Assembly: GCF_009765225.1 (NCBI RefSeq)
Contig: NZ_VMSF01000001.1
Span: 1,612,001-1,676,000, forward strand
Origin: Leifsonia sp. AG29
GTDB lineage: Bacteria; Actinomycetota; Actinomycetes; Actinomycetales; Microbacteriaceae
Length of the DNA: 64,000 nucleotides
Reading direction: 5' to 3'
Shown here: positions 16,624 to 30,176 of the stretch, one piece after another
Layout: each line of letters opens with the position of its first letter
How positions within the stretch are numbered: the stretch's first letter is position 1
Position numbers and translations under genes: made by a program
The notes under the pieces: model-generated
What the model was told of the DNA's origin: nothing
Database searches by the model: none
Seen by the model: only the letters and a program-made list of their open reading frames with translations

Positions 16624-16702
16624 TGTCCGGCGGTGGTCTCTAGGTCGGGGGTTAGACGTTCCCGAATGGTGAGGGAGCGTATTCGGCGGCGGCGTATTCG
16701 TG
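16624..16702. repeat. Diverged intergenic repeat, copy A
   Basis: About 79 bases starting TTGTCCGG and ending in a 36-base block that begins TGGTGAGG. The 36-base block matches 17983-18018 at 29 of 36 positions. It marks the left side of the accessory region. Confidence 0.5.
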
Positions 16703-16732
16703 CCCGGGTTGCGTGGATCTAGGATTCGGAGA

Positions 16733-17143
16733 GTGTCCGACTTGATGGCTCGTTTCCCGGCGGGATCGGCCGTCCTGGCGGTCCGGTTTCCCACCACGGC
16801 GCGTGCGGTGCGTTCTTTGGGTGGATCCCGCCTGCCATCCGCATTCGCTGCGGTGGTGGACGGGGGGCTGTTGAGTCTCGTCGCGTGGCGCAAGCCGAAA
16901 CTGCTCTGGGATCTTCCGGTAACAAGCATTCAGTCTGTTTCGGTTGCGGAGACGCGATCTTCGCCTCCATACCCGCAAATAGCTCTGGCAGTCGTGTTGC
17001 GAGTGCGGACTGGCGTTGGGTTCACGGAGCTTCCGATCGTTCCGGTTTCGGACGACGGCAAGCGGTCCTTGACGTGGAGAGACGCAGAGGTGCATGCGCT
17101 TGCGAGGCGGCTCTCGGATGCCATGAAGAGAACTTCCGATTGA
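16733..17143 (+). CDS. Hypothetical protein, PH-like domain suspected
   Basis: A 136-residue protein from GTG 16733 (weak GGAG ribosome site; ATG 16745 is the alternative). It has alternating strands: AVLAVRFPTTARAVRSL, GGLLSLVAWRKP, LLWDLPVTSIQSVSV, ALAVVLRV and ELPIVPVSD, then a C-terminal helix (DAEVHALARRLSDAM). This order resembles the cytosolic domain of the membrane protein at 26454, including the Trp/Lys/Pro turn and the final helix. There is no membrane segment. GC is lower than the surrounding chromosome. Possibly an orphan immunity-like protein of the RHS locus. Confidence 0.5.
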   Translation: MSDLMARFPAGSAVLAVRFPTTARAVRSLGGSRLPSAFAAVVDGGLLSLVAWRKPKLLWDLPVTSIQSVSVAETRSSPPYPQIALAVVLRVRTGVGFTELPIVPVSDDGKRSLTWRDAEVHALARRLSDAMKRTSD

Positions 17144-17168: not shown

Positions 17169-17408
17169 GTGAAAGCGGAATCGCTCATCATGTCGCCGGT
17201 CGGCATCTTGACCGTCGTCGCAGCGGTTGCGATCATCATCTTTCGGAAGAAGATCGCCGAGATGCAAAAAGCGAACGCCCGGGCAAAGTTCGATAAATCG
17301 TTGCCCGGTGTCGCGGACCGCATCTCAACTCCCGGAAAGATGGCCCTCGCCGGAGCGTTTGGCGTTCTCGTCGGGCTGATTGTCATAATCAAGGCTCTTC
17401 AAGCCTGA
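17169..17408 (+). CDS. Small membrane protein, unknown
   Basis: A 79-residue protein from GTG 17169, preceded by AAAAGGG. It has two hydrophobic segments: VGILTVVAAVAIIIF (about 11-25) and LAGAFGVLVGLIVIIKAL (about 60-77), joined by a basic loop. It lies 25 bases after the PH-like gene, so the two may be co-transcribed. No family recognised. Confidence 0.5.
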   Translation: MKAESLIMSPVGILTVVAAVAIIIFRKKIAEMQKANARAKFDKSLPGVADRISTPGKMALAGAFGVLVGLIVIIKALQA

Positions 17409-18305: not shown

Positions 18306-21300
18306 GTGCGTTTTGCTCGTCGCGGTGGGGGAGTCCGCCGAGTTTCAGGACGGCGTTGGGGTCAGGCGGTTGCCGTTGTGGCTACCGCGGTGGTGGCTGT
18401 GACCTTGACGGTGCAGCCGTTCCAGGTGCCCGAGGCGCGTGCGGATCAATCGCCGCAGGCGGCCGACGCGGGTGCGCTGCCTCAGCATGTGACCGGTGAC
18501 CAGACTCCGGGGTCGGTGTTGACGGACGCCGGCGTTCGCCGGGAGGGCGAGTTGCCGTCGGTCCCGGGTAAGGCGCATGCGACGCACAGCCGTGGTGGGG
18601 TGGAGGGTTTCGACGCGAACACGTCGAGTGTGTCGTCTCGGTCGCAGTTCGAGACGGTGTTTCAGAACACGGATGGTACGAAGACGGCGCAGTTTTCCAC
18701 CGACCCGCTGAACGTGGAGAGATCGGACGGCTCGTGGGTGCCGGTGAACACCCAGGTCACGACGGGCGCGTCCGGGGATCGGACGGTGAGTGATCACCCG
18801 TTGGCTCCGAAGTTCGCTTCTGCGTCCGGGGCATCGGGTGGGGACTACCAGGTGACGGCGGATGGGCACACGGTGTCGTTCAGCCTGGTGGGGGAGCAGC
18901 AGCAGCCGGCCGGTGTGGCTTCCAGTGTGCAGCGGCAGTTCTCTGGCGGGGATGCGGGGTCCTCTGTCGCGTACGACAATGTGGCCGCCAACACGGACCT
19001 GACGTATCAGGTGACGCCGGGTCAGGTGAAGGAGACCCTGATCCTGAACGCGCAGCCGACCAGTTCGAGCCCGTCGTACTCGTGGAGTGTTCACGCGCCG
19101 GGGTTGACGTTGGCCAAGGACAAGCTGGGCGATGTGACGTTCACGGATGATGTCACGGGGAAGCTCGTGTTCCTTACGCCGGTGCCGGCGATGATGGACT
19201 CTTCCGCCGTTGCCGGGGTCTCGGGGGCCGCGATCACAAACGTGCCACTCACGGTGACGCAGACCTCCACCGATGACTGGCGGATGACGTTGACCCCGGA
19301 CCCATCGTGGTTGGATGACCCGGCCCGGGTCTACCCGGTGTATCTGGATCCGTCGACGGCGTCGCCGTATTCGGACAATTCCACCTCGTTCGAGAACACC
19401 GGAACCACCCTGACGGGTGTTGCCTATGTCGGCAACTCGCGTGCGGGTGGCGACACGATGTGGCGCACGGTCACTCATTTCAACTATGAGCAGCTGTTCG
19501 GCTACCAGGTTCTGGGGGCCACGTTGGATGAGTGGTACGGCGGCAGTGGGACCACCAACTCCACGATCGGGATGGTGGATATCGCCTCCGGGCAGGGCTA
19601 CAACGACGTCGGCACCGCCCTGTCGGGCATCACGATCTCAGCGGGAACTTCCGGGTGCGGGTATGCCCAGGACCCGGGTCTGGCGAACACGTTGGCGTCG
19701 TGGGTGAACGCCGGCTGGGCGGGGAACTATTTCATGCTCGGCGGGCAGGAGACCGCGGGCCTGTACACGTACAAGTCGCTGGGTCTTGAATTGTTCATCA
19801 GCTACGAGGCGAAGCCGACGATCGCCGCCTCGAGCCCGACGGCGGTGCCGGACCCGAACGGGTTCACGCCGGGGACGATGACCAACCCGACCGGTGGGGC
19901 GGTGGGTTCGGCCACCCCGACCTTCACGACCACTACAACGCAGGATTCCTCGAACGGGTCCGCCGCGGTCAATCGGGCCTATACGGTGTCGCCGAACTCG
20001 TCGATGGCGTCCCCCGTGTTCCAGACCGGGTGGACCTCCACCAACCAAGTCCAGGTCCCGGCGGGAGTGTTGCAGCCGGGGACGACGTATTACTGGCAGG
20101 CGCAAGTCCAGGACGAATACGGCACGGTCGGTGCGTCGCCGGTGTACTCCTGGAAAACTTCCACTAACCCCGTCCAGAACGCGGGGGTGTCCACCCCGGC
20201 TGATAACTCGATCGTGGCGAGCACAGTCCCGACGTTGAAGGCGCCGCCCTCCACGTCCACCAATGGGCAGCCGCTGCGCTACGCGTTCCGGATCGCCACC
20301 GGCAGCGACGGGACGACCGGCCAGGTTGTGCTCTCGCCGATCGTCTCGCCTGGTAGCGACGGGATGGTGTCCTGGGACGTCCTGCCGAACATCCTCCAAG
20401 ACGGCACCGCGTACACGTGGACCCTGCTGGTCAACGACGGGTACGACGACTGGATCCCGAGCGTGCAGCGGATGACCGTCAATCTGCGGGTGACCAATCC
20501 GGGCCCGGCACCGACGGATACTGCTGGGCCGGTGAGCGTGAACCTGGCCAACGGGAATGTCTCCACTAGTATCACCACACCGTCGGTGAACACGGTCGGC
20601 GGTCCCATGGGGTTCCAGCTGACCTACAACTCCGAACAGGCCTCCAACGCCGGACTGGTCGGCCACTACTGGAACCTCCCCGGTAGCCCGAACACCTACT
20701 CGTACACGACGCTGCCGCCGGCTAGCGAGACTTCGCTGGTGCGCACGGACTCGCAGCTCGCCTTCAACTGGGGGGCGACCGACTCCCCGGCATCGGGGGT
20801 GTCACAGACGTACTTCCAGGCGCAGTGGACCGGTTTCATCTCCCCGCCGACCGGGTCGTACAACTTCGGGTTCTCCTCGGACGACGGCGCCGAGCTCACC
20901 TTGGGAACCACCCCGGTGATCACGGACCAGTTCAACGCGCACCCCGCACAGGGCACCCCGCAAATGGAGACGGCTGCCGCGCAAACGCTGGTGGTGTCCG
21001 GGACTGGTGGGACTCTGACCGCGACCCTGGGCGGGCAGGCGATCGCGTACCCGGTGCCGATCACGGTGAATTACTACCAGATGGCCGGCGGCGCGTCCCT
21101 GTACCTGTATTCGCAGGTGACGGGGGATCCGACGACGGTGAAGGTGGTGCCGGCGAACTGGTTCACGCACACCAACCCGCCGCTGCCGGACGGGTGGGCC
21201 ACCTCGCAACCGATCATGGGCGACGCCGCCACGTATGTTGCGGCGAAGAACAACGGCGGCTCGGTCACCATCACCGACGCCAATGGCGGCACGCACGTGT

Positions 21301-24300
21301 TCTCCCGCAATAGTGCCGGTGGATACAGCCCGCCAGCGGGGGAGTCCACCACCCTGACCACCGATGCGAACGGGGCGCTCTCGCTCACCGGAACCGATGG
21401 CACCGTGTACCTGTTCAACGTTTCCGGGAAGCTGGTCTCCGCGACCCCACCCGTGGACGCCGGAGCCAAACCCGCCACCCCGGTCCCTGCCTATGTGACC
21501 ACGAGCGCATTGACGAACGCGCTGCGATCGTTGTCGGACCCGCTCTCCAACACCGCCAGCTCCGGCACCCCGTCGTATCAACGCGCGGTGTACTTCGCCT
21601 ACGCGAACGAGCAATACTCCGACCTCGGCATCCCCGCCAACGCCGGCATCACCGCTTCGGGCGCCGTCTGCCAAACCCCAACCGGATCGGGGTGGGCCTC
21701 GGCACCGTCCGGGATGCTCTGCGCGATCGTCTACCCGGACGGAACGACCACCCAACTCGAATACACCACCACCGGGCAGCTCGGCGGCGTGCTCACCCCC
21801 GGCGGATCCCGGACACTGCTGGCCTACACCAGCGTCAACGGGCAGAACCTGCTCACCGGTGTCACCACGCCGACCGCGAACGACTGGGCTGCGGTCAACA
21901 ACGCCGCCGCACCGCAGACCATCATCAGCTACGACACCGCGGGTCGCGCCATCGGTGTCACCCTCCCGCAACTCAGCGGAGGCGGCCCGGCACCGGCGAA
22001 GACCTACACCTACGCCGCCGCCGCCAGCGCGAGCGCGGACGGCACCAGCTATGTCGACGTCGCCGGTCTCACCCCGCCCGCCGGGGGAATGGGCCACAAC
22101 GCGGCCGTGACCTTCGACACGGCGTTGCGGAAGACCTCCGCCACCAGCGCCTCGGGACTGACCTCCCGCGCCCTGTGGAACAACCACGACAACCCGCTGG
22201 CCACCCTCGACCCCCAGGGACACGAGTCCACCACCACCTACGACAGCCAAGACCGACCGGTCACCACCTATGGGCCAGCGCCCTCCACATGTTTCGGCGC
22301 CACCACTAGCGCGCCCTTCGGCACCGTCCCGACCAACGCGTCGGGGGTCGCTAATGGGCCAATTCCGGTGGCGGGTACCTGTGCGGCGATGAACGGGGTG
22401 GCCATCGCCACCTCCACCACCACCTATGACGGTGGGTTGGCCGGGCTCGCGGCCGCCTACTTCAACAACCTCACCCTCGCTGGGGCTCCCACCGGATACG
22501 GCCGCGTCTTCACCGGCACAGACGCCCAACAGGTCTGGTCCGGAATCCCCGCCACCGGGGTCGGGACCACAAACTGGTCCGCCTCCTTGACCGGAACGCT
22601 CACGTTCCCGGGCGCCGGCGACTACCAGCTCTCGATCTACACCGATAACACCGCCCGAGTATTCGTCGACGATCGACTGGTCATCAACGCCACCACGTCC
22701 GGCACCTACTCCGCGCAACTGAAAAACATCAAGGCCAGTCAAGTCGCGCGGCTCCGCGTCGGGTACACGCACGCCACCGCTGCCAGCCCCACCTTCCGGA
22801 TGGCGTGGATCGTGCCCGGGCAGGGCAGCGTCTTCATCCCCACCACACAGCTGTCCTCCAGCTACGGGCTGGTCACCGGTACAAGCACCCCGGATTCTGC
22901 CCCCACCGGTGTCGCCGGGATCAGCAACACGAACGTGCCCTCCGCGAACGCGAGCGCTAGCTACGCCTACCCGTGGTTCGGCACCAACGTCACCGCGATC
23001 GCCGACCCCGGCGGCCAGAACCTCACCACCGTGACCACATCCGAGTCGCCCGGCAACGGGTACCTCCGACAGACGAGCTCGCAGAAGCCCGCCGGGGCGG
23101 CCACCGCCACTAACACCGCCTACTACGGCGGCACCTCGATCGCGAACCCCACCCCCACGATCTCCTACGGCACCGCACTTAACATCACCACCCCGGTCTG
23201 CGGGGTGCCAGTGACCACCCCCCAGGACGGTTTGGCCATGTCCGTCACCGGACCAGCACCCGCCACCGGGACCGCACTGGTCACCAAGTACGTGTACGAC
23301 ATCATGGGCCGCGTCGCCGGCACCCTCGCCCCCGGCGACACCACCTGGGCGTGCACCACCTACGACAACCGAGGCAGGACCCAGAAACAGACCTACCCCG
23401 CCTTCGGCGCCCAGCCCGCCCGCACCCTCACCTACACGTACTCCGCCGGCGGCTACGACAGCAACGGCAACCAGGCCGGCGACCCGCTCACCACGACCGT
23501 CACCGACTCCACCCAGACCGCCACCCCCACCAAGGGCACCCTCACTACCCAGGTCAACCTCGACGGCGAGCAGGTCAGTTCCACGGACAGCTGGGGGACG
23601 GTCACCACCACGACCTACAACCAGGCCATGCAAACCCTCACGGCTACGGTGAAGCTGCCCGACGCGACCACCCACACCGAGGCCTACACCTACAATGCGG
23701 ACGGTCAGGCCATCACCGTGGCGGAGGACGGCAAGCCCATCGCCCAGTCCACCTACACGACCGGTGTCCTCACCAGCGTCAGCTACCCGAACGGGACCGG
23801 CAACGCCGGGAACGGAACCTCGGGGACATTCAGCTATGGCCCCACCGGATCCCAAACGGCGACCGCTTGGACGTTCGCTTCCGGGCAATCCCCCCTGACG
23901 GACACGGTTGCTCGATCTCAGGCCGGGCGGATCGTGAAGGACACCATCACCGACGGATCCACCAACTATGTCTCCACCTACGGTTACGACAGTGTCGGCC
24001 GGTTGACCACGGCGATTGTTCCGTACAACCAGCTCACCTACGCGTACGCCGGAACCGGTGGTTGTGGTCAAAATACTGCGGCCGGGGCTGACGGGAACCG
24101 CACCTCGATGACTGATGTGACCACGGCTCCCGGCGCGACCACCCCGAACCCCACCCTCACGGTCGGGTACTGCTACGACAACGCCGACCGGCTCACCTCC
24201 GACACCATCACCGGCGCCCCCGCAAACCCCGACATCGTGATGGGAACCAACCTCACCAGCACGGGAGCTGGCACGAACCTCGCGTACGACACCCACAGCA

Positions 24301-25466
24301 ACGTGACAACGCTCGGCACTGAGACCCTCGGCTACGACGACACCAACCGTCACCTGGCAACAACCCTGACCGACGGCACCACGGTCACCTACCAACGCGA
24401 TGCGGCCGACCGGATCATCGGAATGACCCAAACCCCCGCGGGCGGAACGGCCACGACCGTCCACTACACATACGCCGGCATAGGTCGGTTCACCCTCACC
24501 GCCAGCAATGTCACCCAAGAAGAGACACTCAGTCTGGCCGGTGGCGTCAGCGTGAGTATCCGGCCCACCGCGCAAGCATGGTCCTACCCAGGCCTAACCG
24601 GGCACGTCTTGGTCACGACCGACGGCGCCGGCACCCGAACCGGGGCACTCGCCCTCTACGACCCCTTCGGAGACCCCATCAACCGATCTACAGGGTGCAT
24701 CGGTACCACCGCCGCCGACGGGAGTGGTCCAACCAACACGACCACACCCAACGTCTCCAACGGATTCGAGGGCGCACACGGCAAAGGCCTCCTCACCCTT
24801 GACGGACTCGCCACCATCGAAATGGGGGCACGCCAATACGTGCCCTTGCTCGGCCGATTCCTCTCGGTCGACCCTGTCACGGGGGGAAACGCGAACGACT
24901 ACGTCTACCCAGACGATCCCATCAACAGCAACGACCTCACTGGAAAATGGGGCCTCATGCTCAGCGACGGGGGACCTGGTATCGGGGCGGCGATCTCGCC
25001 GACAGCTGTCAGGCTTCTCGCGAGTAACCGCCTCGAATACAACGGCTATGGGCTTTCGAAGCCCTCGCGGCCTGCTGCCAAAACAAAACAGCTCAGTGCT
25101 GATCAGCATCTACATCGCACTCTGAAGACAATCGCTGTTGACGCTGCATGGATAGGTGAGGCGCTCAACGTGTATGCCTCGGTGGCGTCTGCGGCGGCCT
25201 TTGTATCAGCTGGGACCGGCGACGAGTATGGCGCGGGCGCACTCTGGGGGAGCGCAGTAATCACGGCCAACATCGCAGCTGGCTTCGGAGCAGTCAGCAC
25301 AGCGGCTGGATGCATGGACACCGGGATAAACTCCTCCTGCATCGCGAGCGCGCTGATTACTGGAATGGGATTCATGCTGGCCGAGATTCCAGGGGGCCCC
25401 ATCTTCTCGGCACTTGTCGGAGGAGTGCAACTTATCGGGGACGGCCCGCCGCGATGGGAATTCTGA
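18306..25466 (+). CDS. Secreted RHS/YD-repeat protein with two PA14-like modules and variable C-terminal tip
   Basis: A 2386-residue exported giant protein. Residues 1-46 form a signal peptide with a long basic start and cleavage after ARA. About 350-500 is a DNRLRE-like beta region and 510-740 holds Fn3-like segments ([14 protein letters not shown]). PA14-like modules lie near 790-925 ([16 protein letters not shown]) and 1375-1508 ([20 protein letters not shown]). YD/RHS repeats fill much of the rest ([29 protein letters not shown]). The RHS core ends with [20 protein letters not shown] near 2178. The last 170 residues are an unrelated, hydrophobic, less GC-rich tip with C-x8-C and IPGG. The start is GTG 18306 after GGGAGGG. 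Probable contact-dependent toxin or surface protein. Confidence 0.88.
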
Positions 25467-25478
25467 GAGGAGAAGCCG

Positions 25479-26006
25479 TTGTACGTCTTGGCTCGCGGAT
25501 CTCGTCAAGTCCCGTTTGTGCTGCTGACGCTCCTGATGGTTGCGATCCCAGTAGCCGCAGTCGTAACGTCTCGCCCGGTCCCCATCGTGGTCGCAGCAGT
25601 CGGGGCCGCCGCGTTCCTAGCTGCTGCCGGCCTCCTTCTCCGGTGTTGGTCCAACCGCGCCCAGGCAGCCACCGTCCGAAGCGCCTCAAGTTCGTCAGCG
25701 GTCTTTCGCGCAAGACTAACGCGAAGGTCCTACCGAGCGCTGTGGTCTCGGATATCTGCGAATGGTGTCTTCTACCAAGCTGCGATACAGGTTTGGGTTG
25801 CCATAGTGGGCGAGTCACTTTCCGTCTATTGCACGTTGACTCGAACAGGTGGAAAAGCGGTGGCGCTCGGTTCCGCCGTGGCCCTGGGTGAGTCTCGTCG
25901 CGACTCACGTACGCTCACTTTGATAGACGATGAAGTCGGAGCGATTCACGTCATAATGTCTCGGCGAAACCGGGAAGCTCTGCTGCGCGCCTTACGTGAA
26001 GCCTGA
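25479..26006 (+). CDS. Membrane protein, putative RHS-tip immunity 1
   Basis: A 175-residue protein starting at TTG 25479, with GAGAGGAG just upstream and only 12 bases after the RHS stop, so almost certainly co-transcribed. Two adjacent membrane helices (about 10-28 and 32-54) precede a soluble part: VWVAIVGESLSVYCTL, RTLTLIDDEVGAIHVIM and a final helix NREALLRALREA. The layout of helices plus a small beta-rich domain ending in a helix recurs in the genes at 26454 and 29283. Position after a toxin-like tip suggests immunity; this is inferred. Confidence 0.6.
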   Translation: MYVLARGSRQVPFVLLTLLMVAIPVAAVVTSRPVPIVVAAVGAAAFLAAAGLLLRCWSNRAQAATVRSASSSSAVFRARLTRRSYRALWSRISANGVFYQAAIQVWVAIVGESLSVYCTLTRTGGKAVALGSAVALGESRRDSRTLTLIDDEVGAIHVIMSRRNREALLRALREA

Positions 26007-26040
26007 CGGCCAGTGGCGATCAGACAGGGAGAGGAGATCG

Positions 26041-26454
26041 GTGGAAACTGAACTTCCGAGGTTTCGCCAAATGAAGAAGATCGGCGGCGGCAGCTCGAAT
26101 CTGTGGACCGACGTGACATTGCTAGCAATAGCCGGTGTTTTGGTTGCGCTTGCGGTTATGCTCGTTTGCTTCGCCATAGGGATTCAGCACGTCGCCGTGT
26201 TGTTTGTAGTGGCCCTCTGCTTGGAAGGTTTATGCATCGTCGGGGGTATGGCGGCTGGCGGGATCTCTGCGTTGCAGTCGCGGCGGGAACTCGCCCGGGG
26301 GTACACGAGTCTTCCGAGTGGGAACGCTAATGCGGCGCAGATCGACCCGAGGAGCGGAGCCGTCATTCGTGAACCGGGAGAGGCGTTCCTAACGAAGCAG
26401 GAGCGCGTGCGGCGCACTGCTCTTGCTCGCGCTGAGAATCGCAGCGCAGCGTGA
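26041..26454 (+). CDS. Membrane protein, putative RHS-locus accessory/immunity 2
   Basis: A 137-residue protein from GTG 26041, with GAGGAGATCG immediately upstream. It has two long hydrophobic segments (about 23-45 and 50-70: VTLLAIAGVLVALAVMLVC, VLFVVALCLEGLCIVGGM) and a charged C-terminal tail with KQERVRRTALARAENRS. No family recognised. Its stop overlaps the next start (TGATG), indicating one operon with 25479 and 26454. Confidence 0.58.
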   Translation: METELPRFRQMKKIGGGSSNLWTDVTLLAIAGVLVALAVMLVCFAIGIQHVAVLFVVALCLEGLCIVGGMAAGGISALQSRRELARGYTSLPSGNANAAQIDPRSGAVIREPGEAFLTKQERVRRTALARAENRSAA

Positions 26455-27119
26455 TGGCGAAAGGATCCGGGCGGCTGCGGTGGAGTTGGCCCGTTGCGGC
26501 GTGGGTTGCCTTCGTGATCGTCATGGGGGTGCGTGTCGCTGTCGGAGCGGCGGCGCGAGGACCGATGGCGGTATTACTCACCTTCCTCCTGATCGCCCTG
26601 GGATCTGTGGCGCTCATCGGTGCCGTCACCGGTCTTGTCGCGGTGAAAAGGCGACCACTTCGTCACTTGCAGGAGACGCTGCAATCTCGTGGCGCCGCTG
26701 GTTTCGTCGTCCAGGCCACGGGGGTGGACGACCTGTATTTGGGGCTGCGATTACTTGGCCCTTCGGGCGAGGAGGCGGCCCATTCCTTGGGGCGAATGTT
26801 CGTACTCCGCGTCGCACCCGACGCTTTCGAGTTCTGGTCGCCCGCGAAGCCCACAGTCCCGTCGTTCCGGCTCACGACCGACGACGTTTCGGACGTGACT
26901 GAGACAACGGTGCTGCTGTCCGGAGCCAGCCGACCGGCTGCCGCACTCGTCCTCGCCCGCACGCCCGAAATCAAACTGCCATTCATCGTGATTAGCGGCC
27001 GCGGCAGCGGTCTCAAACCGATGACAGCAACAGAAACGCGCGAGTTCGTCAGTCAGGTCCGTCGTCTCGCGCAGTCCGGATCCAAGAGTGTGGAACGAGA
27101 CCCGAACAAATTGAGCTGA
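26454..27119 (+). CDS. Membrane protein with PH-like cytosolic domain, putative immunity 3
   Basis: A 221-residue protein starting ATG 26454 (GTG 26451 is the alternative), overlapping the previous stop. Two membrane helices (about 10-30 and 38-62) precede a soluble domain of about 140 residues: GAAGFVVQATGVDDLYLGL, MFVLRVAPDAFEFWSPAKP, SFRLTTDDVSDV and LPFIVISGRG, with a final helix ETREFVSQVRRLA. The alternating strands and capping helix resemble bacterial PH-like membrane proteins. The soluble part resembles the 16733 product. Function unknown. Confidence 0.58.
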   Translation: MAKGSGRLRWSWPVAAWVAFVIVMGVRVAVGAAARGPMAVLLTFLLIALGSVALIGAVTGLVAVKRRPLRHLQETLQSRGAAGFVVQATGVDDLYLGLRLLGPSGEEAAHSLGRMFVLRVAPDAFEFWSPAKPTVPSFRLTTDDVSDVTETTVLLSGASRPAAALVLARTPEIKLPFIVISGRGSGLKPMTATETREFVSQVRRLAQSGSKSVERDPNKLS

Positions 27120-27390
27120 CTGTGGCCCGGAAGGTCACCGCCGACGGGGCTTGGAAGGTACGTAGCGGGCGCGCGACTGGATAACGGGGTTATCGGGAGG
27201 CGGGTGGATTCGGGCAACGTCCCTGCCGATGGCTCAGCGACTCAGAAACGGTAGAACGAGCGCTGAGGGCGCGGGAGCGGATTAGCTTGAAGCGCTTCGA
27301 CGGGGAGTCGGGATTGATGTGGTGTAGGCGCTGGGGAGGGCGTCCTGGTTCGACCGGTGACGTTACGGAAGCGGGCGTGAGGTACGAATC
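27120..27390. other. Intergenic region between the RHS operon and the IS element
   Basis: 271 bases with the right-hand 21-base repeat (27174-27194) and no convincing gene. I see no RHS-core coding remnant here, although the sequence just right of the IS (28638 on) is an RHS-core tail. Confidence 0.5.
27174..27194 (+). repeat. 21-base direct repeat, right copy
   Basis: Matches 18040-18060 except for one G-to-T change (CGACTGGATAACGGGGTTAT, then C). Similar G-rich text ending in ATTCGGG follows both copies. Confidence 0.6.
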
Positions 27391-27405
27391 GGTGTCAGGT
27401 TGGGT

Positions 27406-28284
27406 TTAGGCCGCGAGGGTTCGCGGCGTCGTGGGTAGCTTCTCTTCGAACTCGATGGGCGTCAAGCCGCCGAGGGCATCCTGAGCGCGCTGCCGGTGAT
27501 ACTTCCGCTCGATCCAGACCACGATCGCGCGACGCAGCTCCTGCCGGTTCGCCCATCGGCGCTGGTTGAGGACGTTGGTTTGCAACAGCGACCAGAAGCT
27601 CTCCATGGCGGCGTTGTCTCCGGCAGCACCGACCCGGCCCATCGATCCGACCATGTCGTGGCGGCGCAGTTCGCGGCCCATGGCTCGGCTTCGGAATTGG
27701 CTGCCTCTGTCCGCGTGCAGGATGCACCCGGCAACCTCACCACGACGGGCGACGGCGTTGCGGAGCGCGTCGACGGCGAGTTTCGCGGTCATCCGGTCGC
27801 TGATCGAATAGCCCACGATCCGGTTGGAGTGGACGTCCTTGATCGCGCAGCAGTAAAGCTTGCCCTCGTCCGTCCAATGCTCGGTGATGTCGGTCAGCCA
27901 GACCCGGTTCGGGGCGTCGGCACGGAACTGCCGCTGCACGTGGTCATCGAACACAGGCGGCCCGGCCTTCTTGCCCTTCCCGCGGCGGCGGCGTTGCGCG
28001 GAGGAGAGAATCCCGGCTTGGGAGCACAGTTTCCACGCGGTGCGCCGGCTCATCCGCCAGCCGGCCCGGCGCGCTTCATCGGCCAAGTATCGGTAACCGA
28101 AGGTCGGGTCGTCCTGGTGGGCGTCATGCAGGGCGTTGATCCGGTGCGCGCGCAGCACATCCGCGTCACGGACCGGATCGTTGCGCCACCGGTAGTAGGG
28201 CTGACGAGCGAGCCCCCGAACCCGACACGACACCGTCACGGGAATCCCCGCAGCTGCGAGCTCAGCAACGAGCGGGTATGTCAT
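27406..28284 (-). CDS. IS3-family transposase OrfB (DDE integrase domain)
   Basis: 292 residues with an HTH_21-like N-terminal part (FGYRYLADEARRAGWRMSRR) and an rve integrase core. The DDE residues are visible as WLTDITEH, HADRGSQFRS and NAAMESFWS. The C-terminal YHRQRAQDALGGLTPIEFE is typical of IS3. The ATG at 28284 overlaps the orfA stop as ATGA. A C_CCA_AAA slippery heptamer in the orfA frame right before that stop allows a -1 frameshift to make the OrfAB transposase. It appears intact. Confidence 0.95.
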   Translation of the reverse strand: MTYPLVAELAAAGIPVTVSCRVRGLARQPYYRWRNDPVRDADVLRAHRINALHDAHQDDPTFGYRYLADEARRAGWRMSRRTAWKLCSQAGILSSAQRRRRGKGKKAGPPVFDDHVQRQFRADAPNRVWLTDITEHWTDEGKLYCCAIKDVHSNRIVGYSISDRMTAKLAVDALRNAVARRGEVAGCILHADRGSQFRSRAMGRELRRHDMVGSMGRVGAAGDNAAMESFWSLLQTNVLNQRRWANRQELRRAIVVWIERKYHRQRAQDALGGLTPIEFEEKLPTTPRTLAA

Positions 28285-28586
28285 TTTGGGGAGCCACCGA
28301 GCTTCAGGTTCGCCTGCGACAGATACGCTGCCGCCTTCCGAAGCACCTCGTTCTCCTGCTCCAGCAGCCGGTTACGACGCCGCAGCTCGCGCACCTCCGC
28401 GGCCTCGTCGACTGTCTGACCGGGACGGTTGCCGTCCTCGACATCGGCTTGATGCAACCAGTTCTGCAACGTCGCCGCGCTGATACCGAAGTCAGCGGCG
28501 ATCTGCTTGATCGTGACGCCGTCCTCACGGCGCCGGGCAACCGCGACGACATCGTCACGGAACTCTCTGGGATAGGGAGCGGGCAT
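28281..28586 (-). CDS. IS3-family transposase OrfA (HTH/leucine zipper)
   Basis: A 101-residue DNA-binding subunit: MPAPYPREFRDDVVAVARRR, then HTH KQIAADFGISAATLQNWL and a coiled coil RELRRRNRLLEQENEVLRKA. The start ATG at 28586 is the usual OrfA start; an in-frame upstream codon at 28619 would extend it into the terminal repeat region. It ends GGSPK at the slippery sequence (28284-28290). Confidence 0.93.
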   Translation of the reverse strand: MPAPYPREFRDDVVAVARRREDGVTIKQIAADFGISAATLQNWLHQADVEDGNRPGQTVDEAAEVRELRRRNRLLEQENEVLRKAAAYLSQANLKLGGSPK

Positions 28587-28637
28587 GATGACATCCTCCC
28601 CGTTAGCACCCCACGTCACTAACGATCAGCTGTCACC

Positions 28638-29277
28638 AATTCCTTCCTCACGCCCGTCGCTGGGGGCAACGAAAATGATTACAACTACCCCAACGACCCG
28701 GTGAACAGCAGTGACCTCAACGGCATGTGGAGTTTGATGCTTAGTGATGCGGGACCAGGCAACCGCCCCTGTAACCCCCAGCACTTTGCTAGGCATCAAC
28801 AACGGGAGCATTGTCGTCCACCGAGGTGTGCTCATGACTAAGCATGAAGCTCGAGCAACCGTAAAACACGGCAGTTCGGCTAGCGCGGGAGGGCGTTCAA
28901 AGTCTTCAGACGGACAGCAAAAAGCTGCGCTCCGGGCGGTAAGTGGAGTGCTCGCAATCATCGGCGCGGCGGCTGGGTTTGTATCCCTGGTTTGCGCAGC
29001 TTGCGCTGTTATTGCGGAGCCCATATCGCTAGCGGCCGGTGCGGCCGCAGCTGGAATCGACTGCTTCGGCCTCCATGATGCCGTCGGTTGCTCAGCCGAT
29101 CTCGTTGGCCTAATTCCAGGAGGGGGCCTCTTTATGGCAACGAAAATGGTCTCGAAAGTAGGCGATGGCTTGGAGGCAGCCCATCAGGCGGCGGGCGCCG
29201 TCGGAGTGATGGGGAGCGGGATGGGTGCAGTAAACTCATTCGGCGAGAACTGGATCGAGCGGCAGTCCATGCGCTAG
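28638..29277 (+). pseudogene. Orphan RHS core tail and second C-terminal tip, truncated and frameshifted
   Basis: Immediately right of the IS the frame reads FLTPVAGGNENDYNYPNDPV then NSSDLNGMWSLMLSDAGPG. This parallels the RHS protein's [20 protein letters not shown] ... LMLSDGGPG, so it is the end of a second RHS core. The frame then fails: removing one A at 28761-28762 joins it to TAPVTPSTLLGINNGS and about 170 further codons to the stop at 29275-29277. That tip is hydrophobic (SGVLAIIGAAAGFVSLVCAAC) with C-x8-C and IPGG, like the active tip. The N-terminal part is missing, probably removed when the IS deleted its left flank. A short product from GTG 28744 remains possible. Confidence 0.8.
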
Positions 29278-29282
29278 GAGTA

Positions 29283-30176
29283 ATGGCGAGTCTGAGTACC
29301 TCGGCTGGATGGCGCCGGTTGGCTCTGATCGTGGTGGCCGTCTTGGCGCCCATCGGGCTGAGTATGGTGGGCTTCGCAATTCTGGATATTCAGGGGTTCA
29401 TGCGTTCGAGCTGGGCGTTCTGGGTCTTGATGGTGTGCCTCTTTGTCCCGTATTCGTTGGCATATACCGCTGACATATTTCGGCGGCGAGAGGCGCGCAC
29501 GGCCGTGAGTTCTGCTGGCGACGCATCGCCACTCGTGTTCGCCAGCTCGTCGAGCGTGCCGCTGTCGGAGCCGGAGATCGGCCGCGTGGAGTCCGCTTCG
29601 CGTTCTCATTACGGCTGGATATGGGTTGGGTTCGCTGCCTTCGTCGCCTATGCGGCATTTCGGATCGCCTGGGCATTGGCAGGGGGTGCCGCTTTCGATT
29701 GGACGGCCGTGATCGCACTGGTCGCCATTGTGTGCTTCGCGAGCATAATGCCGAGCGTGGTTGCGTGGCAGCGCTTCCGAAGGGCAGTTCTGCGCATCGA
29801 CAAAGCGCGCGCGACCTGGCCGGCCTTCCGCACCGACCAATTCGCTACCGAGCTGCACCGGTCAAGGCCGGGCGCAACGATTCCGCAAGACCTGATCCTT
29901 TCGGCGAGCAACTCCACGGTCGACGTGTGGACGGCCGAACGCGAGCCACGGCTGCTCGTATCCTTTCCGCGCGATGCGGCCACAACTCTAAACGCGTTCG
30001 CCAGCGTCGACCGGCTGGGGTCCTCGGGTGTTCGCATCGAGCGTCACGACGGCCACTCGGTGGAACCCTACGAGTTCATCGCCCGGCGCAAGGGAGTCCT
30101 CACGTACTTCCGGACAGACGAAGCCACCGCCCAGCGATGCGCTGAAGAGCTGACGTCGGGGCGAGGGTCGGAGTGA
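29283..30176 (+). CDS. Polytopic membrane protein, putative immunity partner of the orphan tip
   Basis: 297 residues from ATG 29283, with AGGAG overlapping the upstream stop codon region, so coupled to the orphan tip. It has four hydrophobic segments (about 10-34, 41-65, 103-127 and 134-155) and then a soluble domain of about 130 residues: DLILSASNSTVDVWTAER, PRLLVSFPRD, YEFIARRKGVLTYFR and a final helix ATAQRCAEELTS. The order (helices, beta-rich domain with a WxxxR/P turn, capping helix) repeats that of 26454. No named family recognised. Confidence 0.6.
   Translation: MASLSTSAGWRRLALIVVAVLAPIGLSMVGFAILDIQGFMRSSWAFWVLMVCLFVPYSLAYTADIFRRREARTAVSSAGDASPLVFASSSSVPLSEPEIGRVESASRSHYGWIWVGFAAFVAYAAFRIAWALAGGAAFDWTAVIALVAIVCFASIMPSVVAWQRFRRAVLRIDKARATWPAFRTDQFATELHRSRPGATIPQDLILSASNSTVDVWTAEREPRLLVSFPRDAATTLNAFASVDRLGSSGVRIERHDGHSVEPYEFIARRKGVLTYFRTDEATAQRCAEELTSGRGSE

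Follow-up and report, generated by a model that had tools for sequence, protein, structure and literature searches.

A probable membrane-inserting RHS toxin tip and two kinds of membrane-protein partners in Leifsonia sp. AG29

We analyzed a 64,000-nucleotide stretch (positions 1,612,001 to 1,676,000 of contig NZ_VMSF01000001.1, hereafter the window) of the 3.68-Mb genome of Leifsonia sp. AG29, in which a gene for a 2386-residue RHS/YD-repeat protein with predicted export (18306–25466, + strand) is followed by small membrane-protein genes. The locus most likely encodes a polymorphic toxin with a membrane-inserting tip and a two-part membrane immunity. The exported RHS protein would provide a shell bearing an exchangeable C-terminal tip (T1), a hydrophobic helical hairpin whose two turn cysteines could form a disulfide outside the cell. 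Once released onto a neighboring cell, the tip would enter the cytoplasmic membrane and leave it leaky or depolarized. The producer would be protected by the membrane proteins encoded beside the tip, which are of two kinds, named for a pleckstrin homology (PH)-like fold (PH-type) and for a GY-containing tail (GY-type). The two kinds probably act as one membrane complex, because they often occur together and have repeatedly been fused. Exchange of tips, a common tip family, recurrent partners and partner fusions are apparent from the sequences themselves, and we infer secretion, release, membrane damage, disulfide formation, toxicity and protection. Action on membranes is proposed because the tip is hydrophobic, matches no enzyme and is accompanied by membrane proteins.

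The N-terminus of the RHS protein has two arginines, a hydrophobic stretch and an ARA sequence and, judged by eye, reads as a Sec-type signal. Pfam finds PA14 in two stretches (best match, residues 1380–1509) and weak RHS repeats, and NCBIfam finds YD_repeat_2x (E 9.2e-8) and Rhs_assc_core (E 1.2e-8). The core end, delimited by the Rhs_assc_core match (residues 2167–2213) and the position of its terminal motif, covers residues 2167–2216 (24804–24953, + strand). Because the match stops at residue 2213, the hydrophobic tail of 170 residues (24954–25466, + strand) is a true tip, placed directly after the core. Its G+C content is 60.8% versus 66.4% for the core, just below all 510-base segments of the core (62.5–71.0%, mean 66.4, standard deviation 2.0), and the three genes downstream have 60.1–63.7%. 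An earlier sequence-only reading of this DNA proposed an exported RHS protein with a hydrophobic and compositionally distinct tip; the tip is borne out and export is probable. The locus has three features of RHS polymorphic toxins: RHS/YD repeats with a core, a variable tip after the core, and displaced tip cassettes with partners, the last seen at 28644–30176 of the window and in an array of Subtercola vilae (L061/L011; we number loci elsewhere with the prefix L).

A search with the core end retrieved 62 loci in genome contigs, which together with the window, L003, L011 and L013 provide 85 core ends. After exclusion of the three core ends from duplicate loci, 79 of 82 terminate in D-x-x-G (28 DLSG, 27 DLTG and 24 others), three are off-pattern and none has DPxG, counts that apply to the family of this core, as the relatives were found with it. 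The DLTGKWG ending of the AG29 protein, which the earlier reading had contrasted with DPxGL as unusual, is therefore ordinary for relatives of this core. As regards self-cleavage at the core end, the counts show conservation only. Across the 85 core ends, related cores bear unrelated tips, mostly of 100–190 residues and of many kinds. A second RHS gene in the AG29 genome (L003, 8665–15633, − strand) has the same kind of core end and a hydrophilic tip of 136 residues with a 145-residue partner, so tips also differ in kind within this genome. At L003 8231–9075 (− strand), the 145-residue open reading frame (ORF) overlaps the end of the hydrophilic tip, which has no NCBIfam match at E ≤ 1.

T1 and a second, displaced tip in the window (T2, a 177-residue ORF at 28744–29277, + strand) share 26% identity over 103 residues (E 8e-4) and, by sequence, belong to one family that has no name in the libraries searched. 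T1 has no Pfam match at E ≤ 10, and no NCBIfam or Protein Data Bank (PDB) sequence family claims it, in agreement with the earlier impression that the tip carries no recognized enzymatic motif or named domain. We scanned the tips for pairs of cysteines at a spacing of 5–14 residues that have a hydrophobic 18-residue flank on each side (score >0.8). The scan recovered T1 and tips of Leifsonia sp. Leaf336 (two), S. vilae (two), Salinibacterium, Agromyces bracchium, Cryobacterium and Curtobacterium. T2 is missing from this list because its frame differs from that of the core remnant before it. Two other tips that pass the scan (L047@13253 and L052) have a different look and were not counted as members. 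Both cysteines, encoded in T1 at 25311–25313 and 25338–25340 (+ strand), are invariant in a 32-row tip alignment whose rows were partly picked for the cysteine pair. The loop between them has 7–14 residues, 27–99 residues follow the second cysteine, and a glycine lies near the end in 27 of the 32 rows.

A tip-profile search matched 13 of 28 genomes of the genus and 20 of 398 genomes of the family Microbacteriaceae, and a class-level search matched 8 of 394, AG29 being one. Among the 40 loci from both family and genus searches (L089–L128), 34 carry a hairpin tip in which the two cysteines are present. L127 resembles these but has neither cysteine, L106 is a decayed tip that retains one cysteine and has a GY stretch within its ORF, and the remaining four are not tips. 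One hairpin tip (L101) sits on a core ending DPLGL, so these tips are not tied to one core. In the predicted structure T1 is all-helical (helices 42–87, 94–123, 127–142 and 148–162), and its cysteines lie at the bend between the two middle helices, which weakly suggests a hydrophobic helical hairpin with its turn between the two cysteines. The low-confidence prediction resembles neither a known enzyme nor a beta shell, the outcomes that the earlier reading had named as damaging to it.

Partners of both kinds follow T1. The gene for I1 (175 residues, 25479–26006, + strand) begins 12 bases after the RHS gene with a TTG start and GAGGAGA just upstream, and encodes two membrane segments and a domain that aligns with the PH-type proteins. 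I2 (137 residues, 26041–26454, + strand) is GY-type, with two membrane segments and a GYTS...DPRSGAVIREPGEAFL tail. The start of I3 (221 residues, 26454–27119, + strand) overlaps the stop of I2. The earlier description of three small membrane-protein genes, the first within 12 bases, therefore stands: I1 and I2 have two hydrophobic segments each and the I3 model has two helices. This AlphaFold2 model (ORF from 26451; mean predicted local distance difference test score, pLDDT, 81.7) gives good support for a PH-like fold in the partner, as residues of about 75–222 are predicted to form a PH/PTB fold, a seven-stranded barrel capped by a C-terminal helix. No curated PH family is among the ten Pfam families listed for 12 partners at E ≤ 5. 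I4, the partner of T2 (297 residues, 29283–30176, + strand), is PH-type with an extra N-terminal membrane part, contributes, like I1, a seed to the PH-type hidden Markov model (HMM), and shows three hydrophobic segments in a simple scan. In general, PH-type proteins combine two membrane helices with the PH-like fold and GY-type proteins combine two membrane helices with a GYTT...PGEP tail. Nine genes fuse the two, in either order.

Other small genes lie near the partners. Upstream of the RHS gene, 16700–17143 (+ strand) has a PH-profile match without membrane helices, and the next gene (17169–17408, + strand) encodes a 79-residue protein with two hydrophobic stretches and the sequence STPGKM. 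Similar small STPxxM proteins are encoded close to partner genes in L131 and L153, and L069 has one with STPGLY; they are possibly a third partner family.

Tips and partners go together. The first partner HMMs were seeded only from genes known before the survey (window, L011 and L013; seven PH-type and two GY-type rows) and applied to 76 survey core ends, with seeds and duplicates dropped. A partner (E < 0.01, at most 1200 bases away) lies near 6 of 6 hairpin tips and near 4 of 70 other tips (one-sided Fisher p 9.6e-7), or 6/6 versus 4/66 when only core ends with 1200 bases of downstream sequence are considered. The four non-hairpin cases are L034 (twice, through one gene), L048, where the partner lies behind an intervening gene, and L069, where an orphan hairpin tip lies in between. 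At the loci found with the tip profile, 33 of 34 hairpin tips have a partner (E < 0.01) that starts no more than 600 bases downstream when the first or extended HMMs are used, as expected from the earlier reading if the downstream genes associate with the tip in other genomes. The count is 21 of 22 once the 12 loci that seeded tips or partners are removed; the first-seed HMMs alone give 30 of 34, and 18 of 22 without the seed loci. At the exception (L098), a 203-residue protein with two membrane segments follows the tip and scores below the threshold. The view of the locus as a polymorphic toxin with membrane-active-looking tips and membrane partners is supported by these results: the cores carry unrelated tips, and the tip family and its partners recur together in other genera.

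Several observations weigh against this interpretation. The T1 model is weak (pLDDT 58.1; predicted template modeling score, pTM, 0.36) and the folds that it matches are helical arrangements of a common sort; sequence is thus a stronger basis for the hairpin than this model. The 32 tips show no enrichment of glycine zippers (65 motifs, a number reached by 92 of 1000 shuffles), and the two in T1 sit outside the middle helices (94–142). L127 has a hydrophobic tip with a GY-type partner and lacks both cysteines, and the seven weak tip-profile matches outside Microbacteriaceae have neither partner nearby. At L034, the PH-type gene follows a tip that is not a hairpin. A broken hairpin tip, with its DC...C segment in another frame, occurs in Agromyces Root81 (L040@10289), and its neighbor is a three-span protein that matches neither partner HMM. 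Counting L040 changes the association to 6/7 versus 4/69 (p 6.4e-6), and counting L052 and L047@13253 as well changes it to 6/9 versus 4/67 (p 6.9e-5). Conversely, a tip-profile match lies within 1.5 kb upstream at 16 of the 30 GY loci counted (from 32 matches) and at 11 of the 30 PH loci counted (from 36 matches), and some of these tips had themselves contributed to the profile. Among the nine fused genes, seven lack a nearby tip-profile match; one of these seven (L158) belongs to the RHS array of Leaf336, where the tip before it escapes the profile. L132 and L138 share one non-RHS neighbor and L136 and L146 another, in genome pairs within the genus. The tip-less fused genes may be orphan immunity genes or something unrelated. 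Orphan copies of exiCD, which encode the immunity pair of a staphylococcal membrane toxin, have been described (PMC12744356; here and below we draw on parts of the papers cited by PubMed Central, PMC, identifier).

Shared non-RHS sites of GY–PH fusions (L132/L138; L136/L146) would be natural if the PH-type and GY-type proteins were general envelope proteins that stand beside RHS genes by chance, with the real immunity encoded elsewhere. The 19 of 30 PH-profile loci without an upstream tip match and the broken tip of L040 without either partner point the same way. A chance neighborhood is hard to reconcile with partners at 6 of 6 hairpin tips (6 of 7 with L040) against 4 of 70 other core ends, and at 21 of 22 independent hairpin loci, and we consider it very improbable. 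Less improbable, if still unlikely, is that the tip acts as a soluble or lipid-binding poison and only looks membrane-active, and that the partners neutralize it during membrane crossing. The cysteine flanks of T1 have moderate mean hydropathy (1.34 and 1.41) and are rich in alanine and glycine, as such a poison would allow. T1 matches no enzyme family, however, and the partners inspected have at least two hydrophobic segments, like immunity proteins to membrane-depolarizing toxins. In the parts of the literature used here, polytopic membrane proteins almost always provide the immunity to channel formers (PMC12744356), and membrane-active tips such as those of EsxX (PMC12744356) and of the contact-dependent inhibition (CDI) ionophores (PMC11630599) are typically opposed by membrane immunity proteins.

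The hairpin might instead be an entry or anchoring segment that brings the RHS shell to or into the membrane, with the partners as receptors or anchors. In CDI toxins, entry is the task of a separate domain that exploits target-cell membrane proteins (PMC11630599), and the loose helical arrangement of the T1 model would suit such a role. Yet the hairpin comes last in the protein, with 27–99 residues behind it, which leaves little to deliver. Furthermore, tips are exchanged along with partner genes and S. vilae (L011/L061) carries an array of orphan tips and partners, a diversification not to be expected of anchors. We regard this alternative as having a small chance of being correct, slightly better than that of the soluble poison. 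Within the favored interpretation of a membrane-inserting tip with two-part immunity, a more specific and only tentative proposal is that the hairpins are a new actinobacterial class of tip, locked after export by a disulfide cap and disarmed by a two-subunit complex. Its PH-fold subunit would sense or hold the hairpin from the cytosolic side, and the subunits, repeatedly fused, would also persist across Leifsonia as orphans that give standing protection against neighbors.

The history of the locus is consistent with exchange of tips. The earlier reading described a displaced second tip with its own membrane-protein gene; T2 and I4 are present, but T2 is out of frame with the RHS core-end remnant that precedes it (about 28644 to 28760, + strand). 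As remnant and tip are in different frames, T2 is not readable as a core end and is an orphan. T2 is 63% identical over 164 residues to the main RHS tip of Leifsonia sp. Leaf336 (L026), I4 is 60% identical over 286 residues to the partner of that tip, and the Leaf336 core has 79% DNA identity near its end. Hence, a main tip in Leaf336 is a displaced module in AG29, as fits tip exchange. The best relative found for T1 (41% identity over 128 residues) is in an orphan cassette of S. vilae, whose array (L011/L061) has four hairpin tips with partners in tandem. I2, I3 and the T2–I4 module would then represent stored immunity and a displaced older tip. Between I3 and the core remnant lies an IS3-type element (27406–28619, − strand) with an integrase core part (27406–28284; Pfam rve and HTH_21), which has its sole full-length match in the AG29 genome here, and a helix-turn-helix part (28281–28619; HTH_Tnp_1). 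The element, the frame break before T2, the common family of T1 and T2 and the ordinary core ending had all been overlooked.

Other tip kinds surfaced in the survey. Three tips on the same core (L033, 3825–4247; L038, 8688–9146; L054, 8691–9203) have an early CGF(V/I)PGxxGxxC followed by hydrophobic and basic parts, and L036 (8700–9137) has a looser form. Tips in L031 (8685–9038) and L032 (8682–9098 and 10103–10516) share C-x6-C-x2-GDHYHV near the end, and those of L035, L053, L058, L062 and L071, from several genera, are glycine-rich with a C-x3/4-C segment and a late GCS. Outside the family, large alanine-rich-repeat proteins (L191, L193 and L195) terminate in hydrophobic tips that lack the cysteine pair. 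Behind each lies a different small membrane protein with two or three spans, so that these loci are perhaps a parallel system.

The closest parallels are with membrane toxins of other carriers. EsxX, with its immunity proteins ExiCD and ExiAB (PMC12744356), and TelE (PMC10434224) are LXG membrane toxins of Staphylococcus and Streptococcus. Like T1, the EsxX toxin is C-terminal and hydrophobic, and it has a pair of membrane proteins (ExiC and ExiD), also with orphan copies, that are needed together for protection against secreted EsxX (PMC12744356). The recurrent GY and PH genes and their fusions are only suggestive of such jointly required membrane proteins. Differences are also apparent. EsxX and TelE have an LXG carrier and type VII secretion (PMC12744356), whereas the carrier here is an RHS protein in which Pfam finds no LXG domain at E ≤ 1. 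They are defined by a glycine zipper (PMC12744356), which is not enriched in the hairpin tips. Six membrane helices are predicted for each of ExiC and ExiD, with no PH-like domain mentioned in the parts of the report used here (PMC12744356). No counterpart of the soluble ExiAB was seen, and no search aimed at ExiAB was made.

Tse5 of Pseudomonas and its immunity protein Tsi5 are similar by description in that an RHS shell bears a C-terminal tip that acts on membranes and the immunity protein is membrane-bound (PMC9637101, PMC10684867, PMC12744356). The system differs in being Gram-negative and type VI delivered, with one immunity protein named (PMC9637101, PMC10684867). CdiA-CT ionophores and CdiI provide polymorphic membrane-active tips, hydrophobic immunity and diverse cognate pairs (PMC11630599). 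Their carrier is the two-partner CdiA rather than RHS, the tip has a predicted five-helix ionophore domain plus a variable entry domain, and no PH-like domain is mentioned for CdiI in the part of that paper used here (PMC11630599). The W-TIP tips are also small, very hydrophobic and predicted to have two membrane helices, but they carry RxxR and W plus TIP motifs and are restricted to proteobacteria (PMC3482391), and the TIP tripeptide is absent from T1. Residues of about 75–222 of I3 are modeled like the PH/PTB-fold domains of GRK2 and IRS-1, from which they differ in being joined to two N-terminal membrane helices. Pleckstrin homology is not mentioned in the part of the matching open PMC literature on immunity proteins or polymorphic toxins that was covered. 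Likewise, this tip family, PH-like immunity proteins and RHS toxins of Microbacteriaceae are not described in the titles and abstract beginnings from the part of the matching open PMC literature that was searched.

To our knowledge, the RHS-borne interbacterial weapons of actinobacteria have been little studied. With this analysis a tip that had no name gains a family and a testable architecture, along with two partner families, one of them with a predicted PH-like fold. The often-fused partner pair lends itself to testing directly whether a membrane-inserting toxin must be countered by two membrane proteins jointly, as reported for ExiCD.
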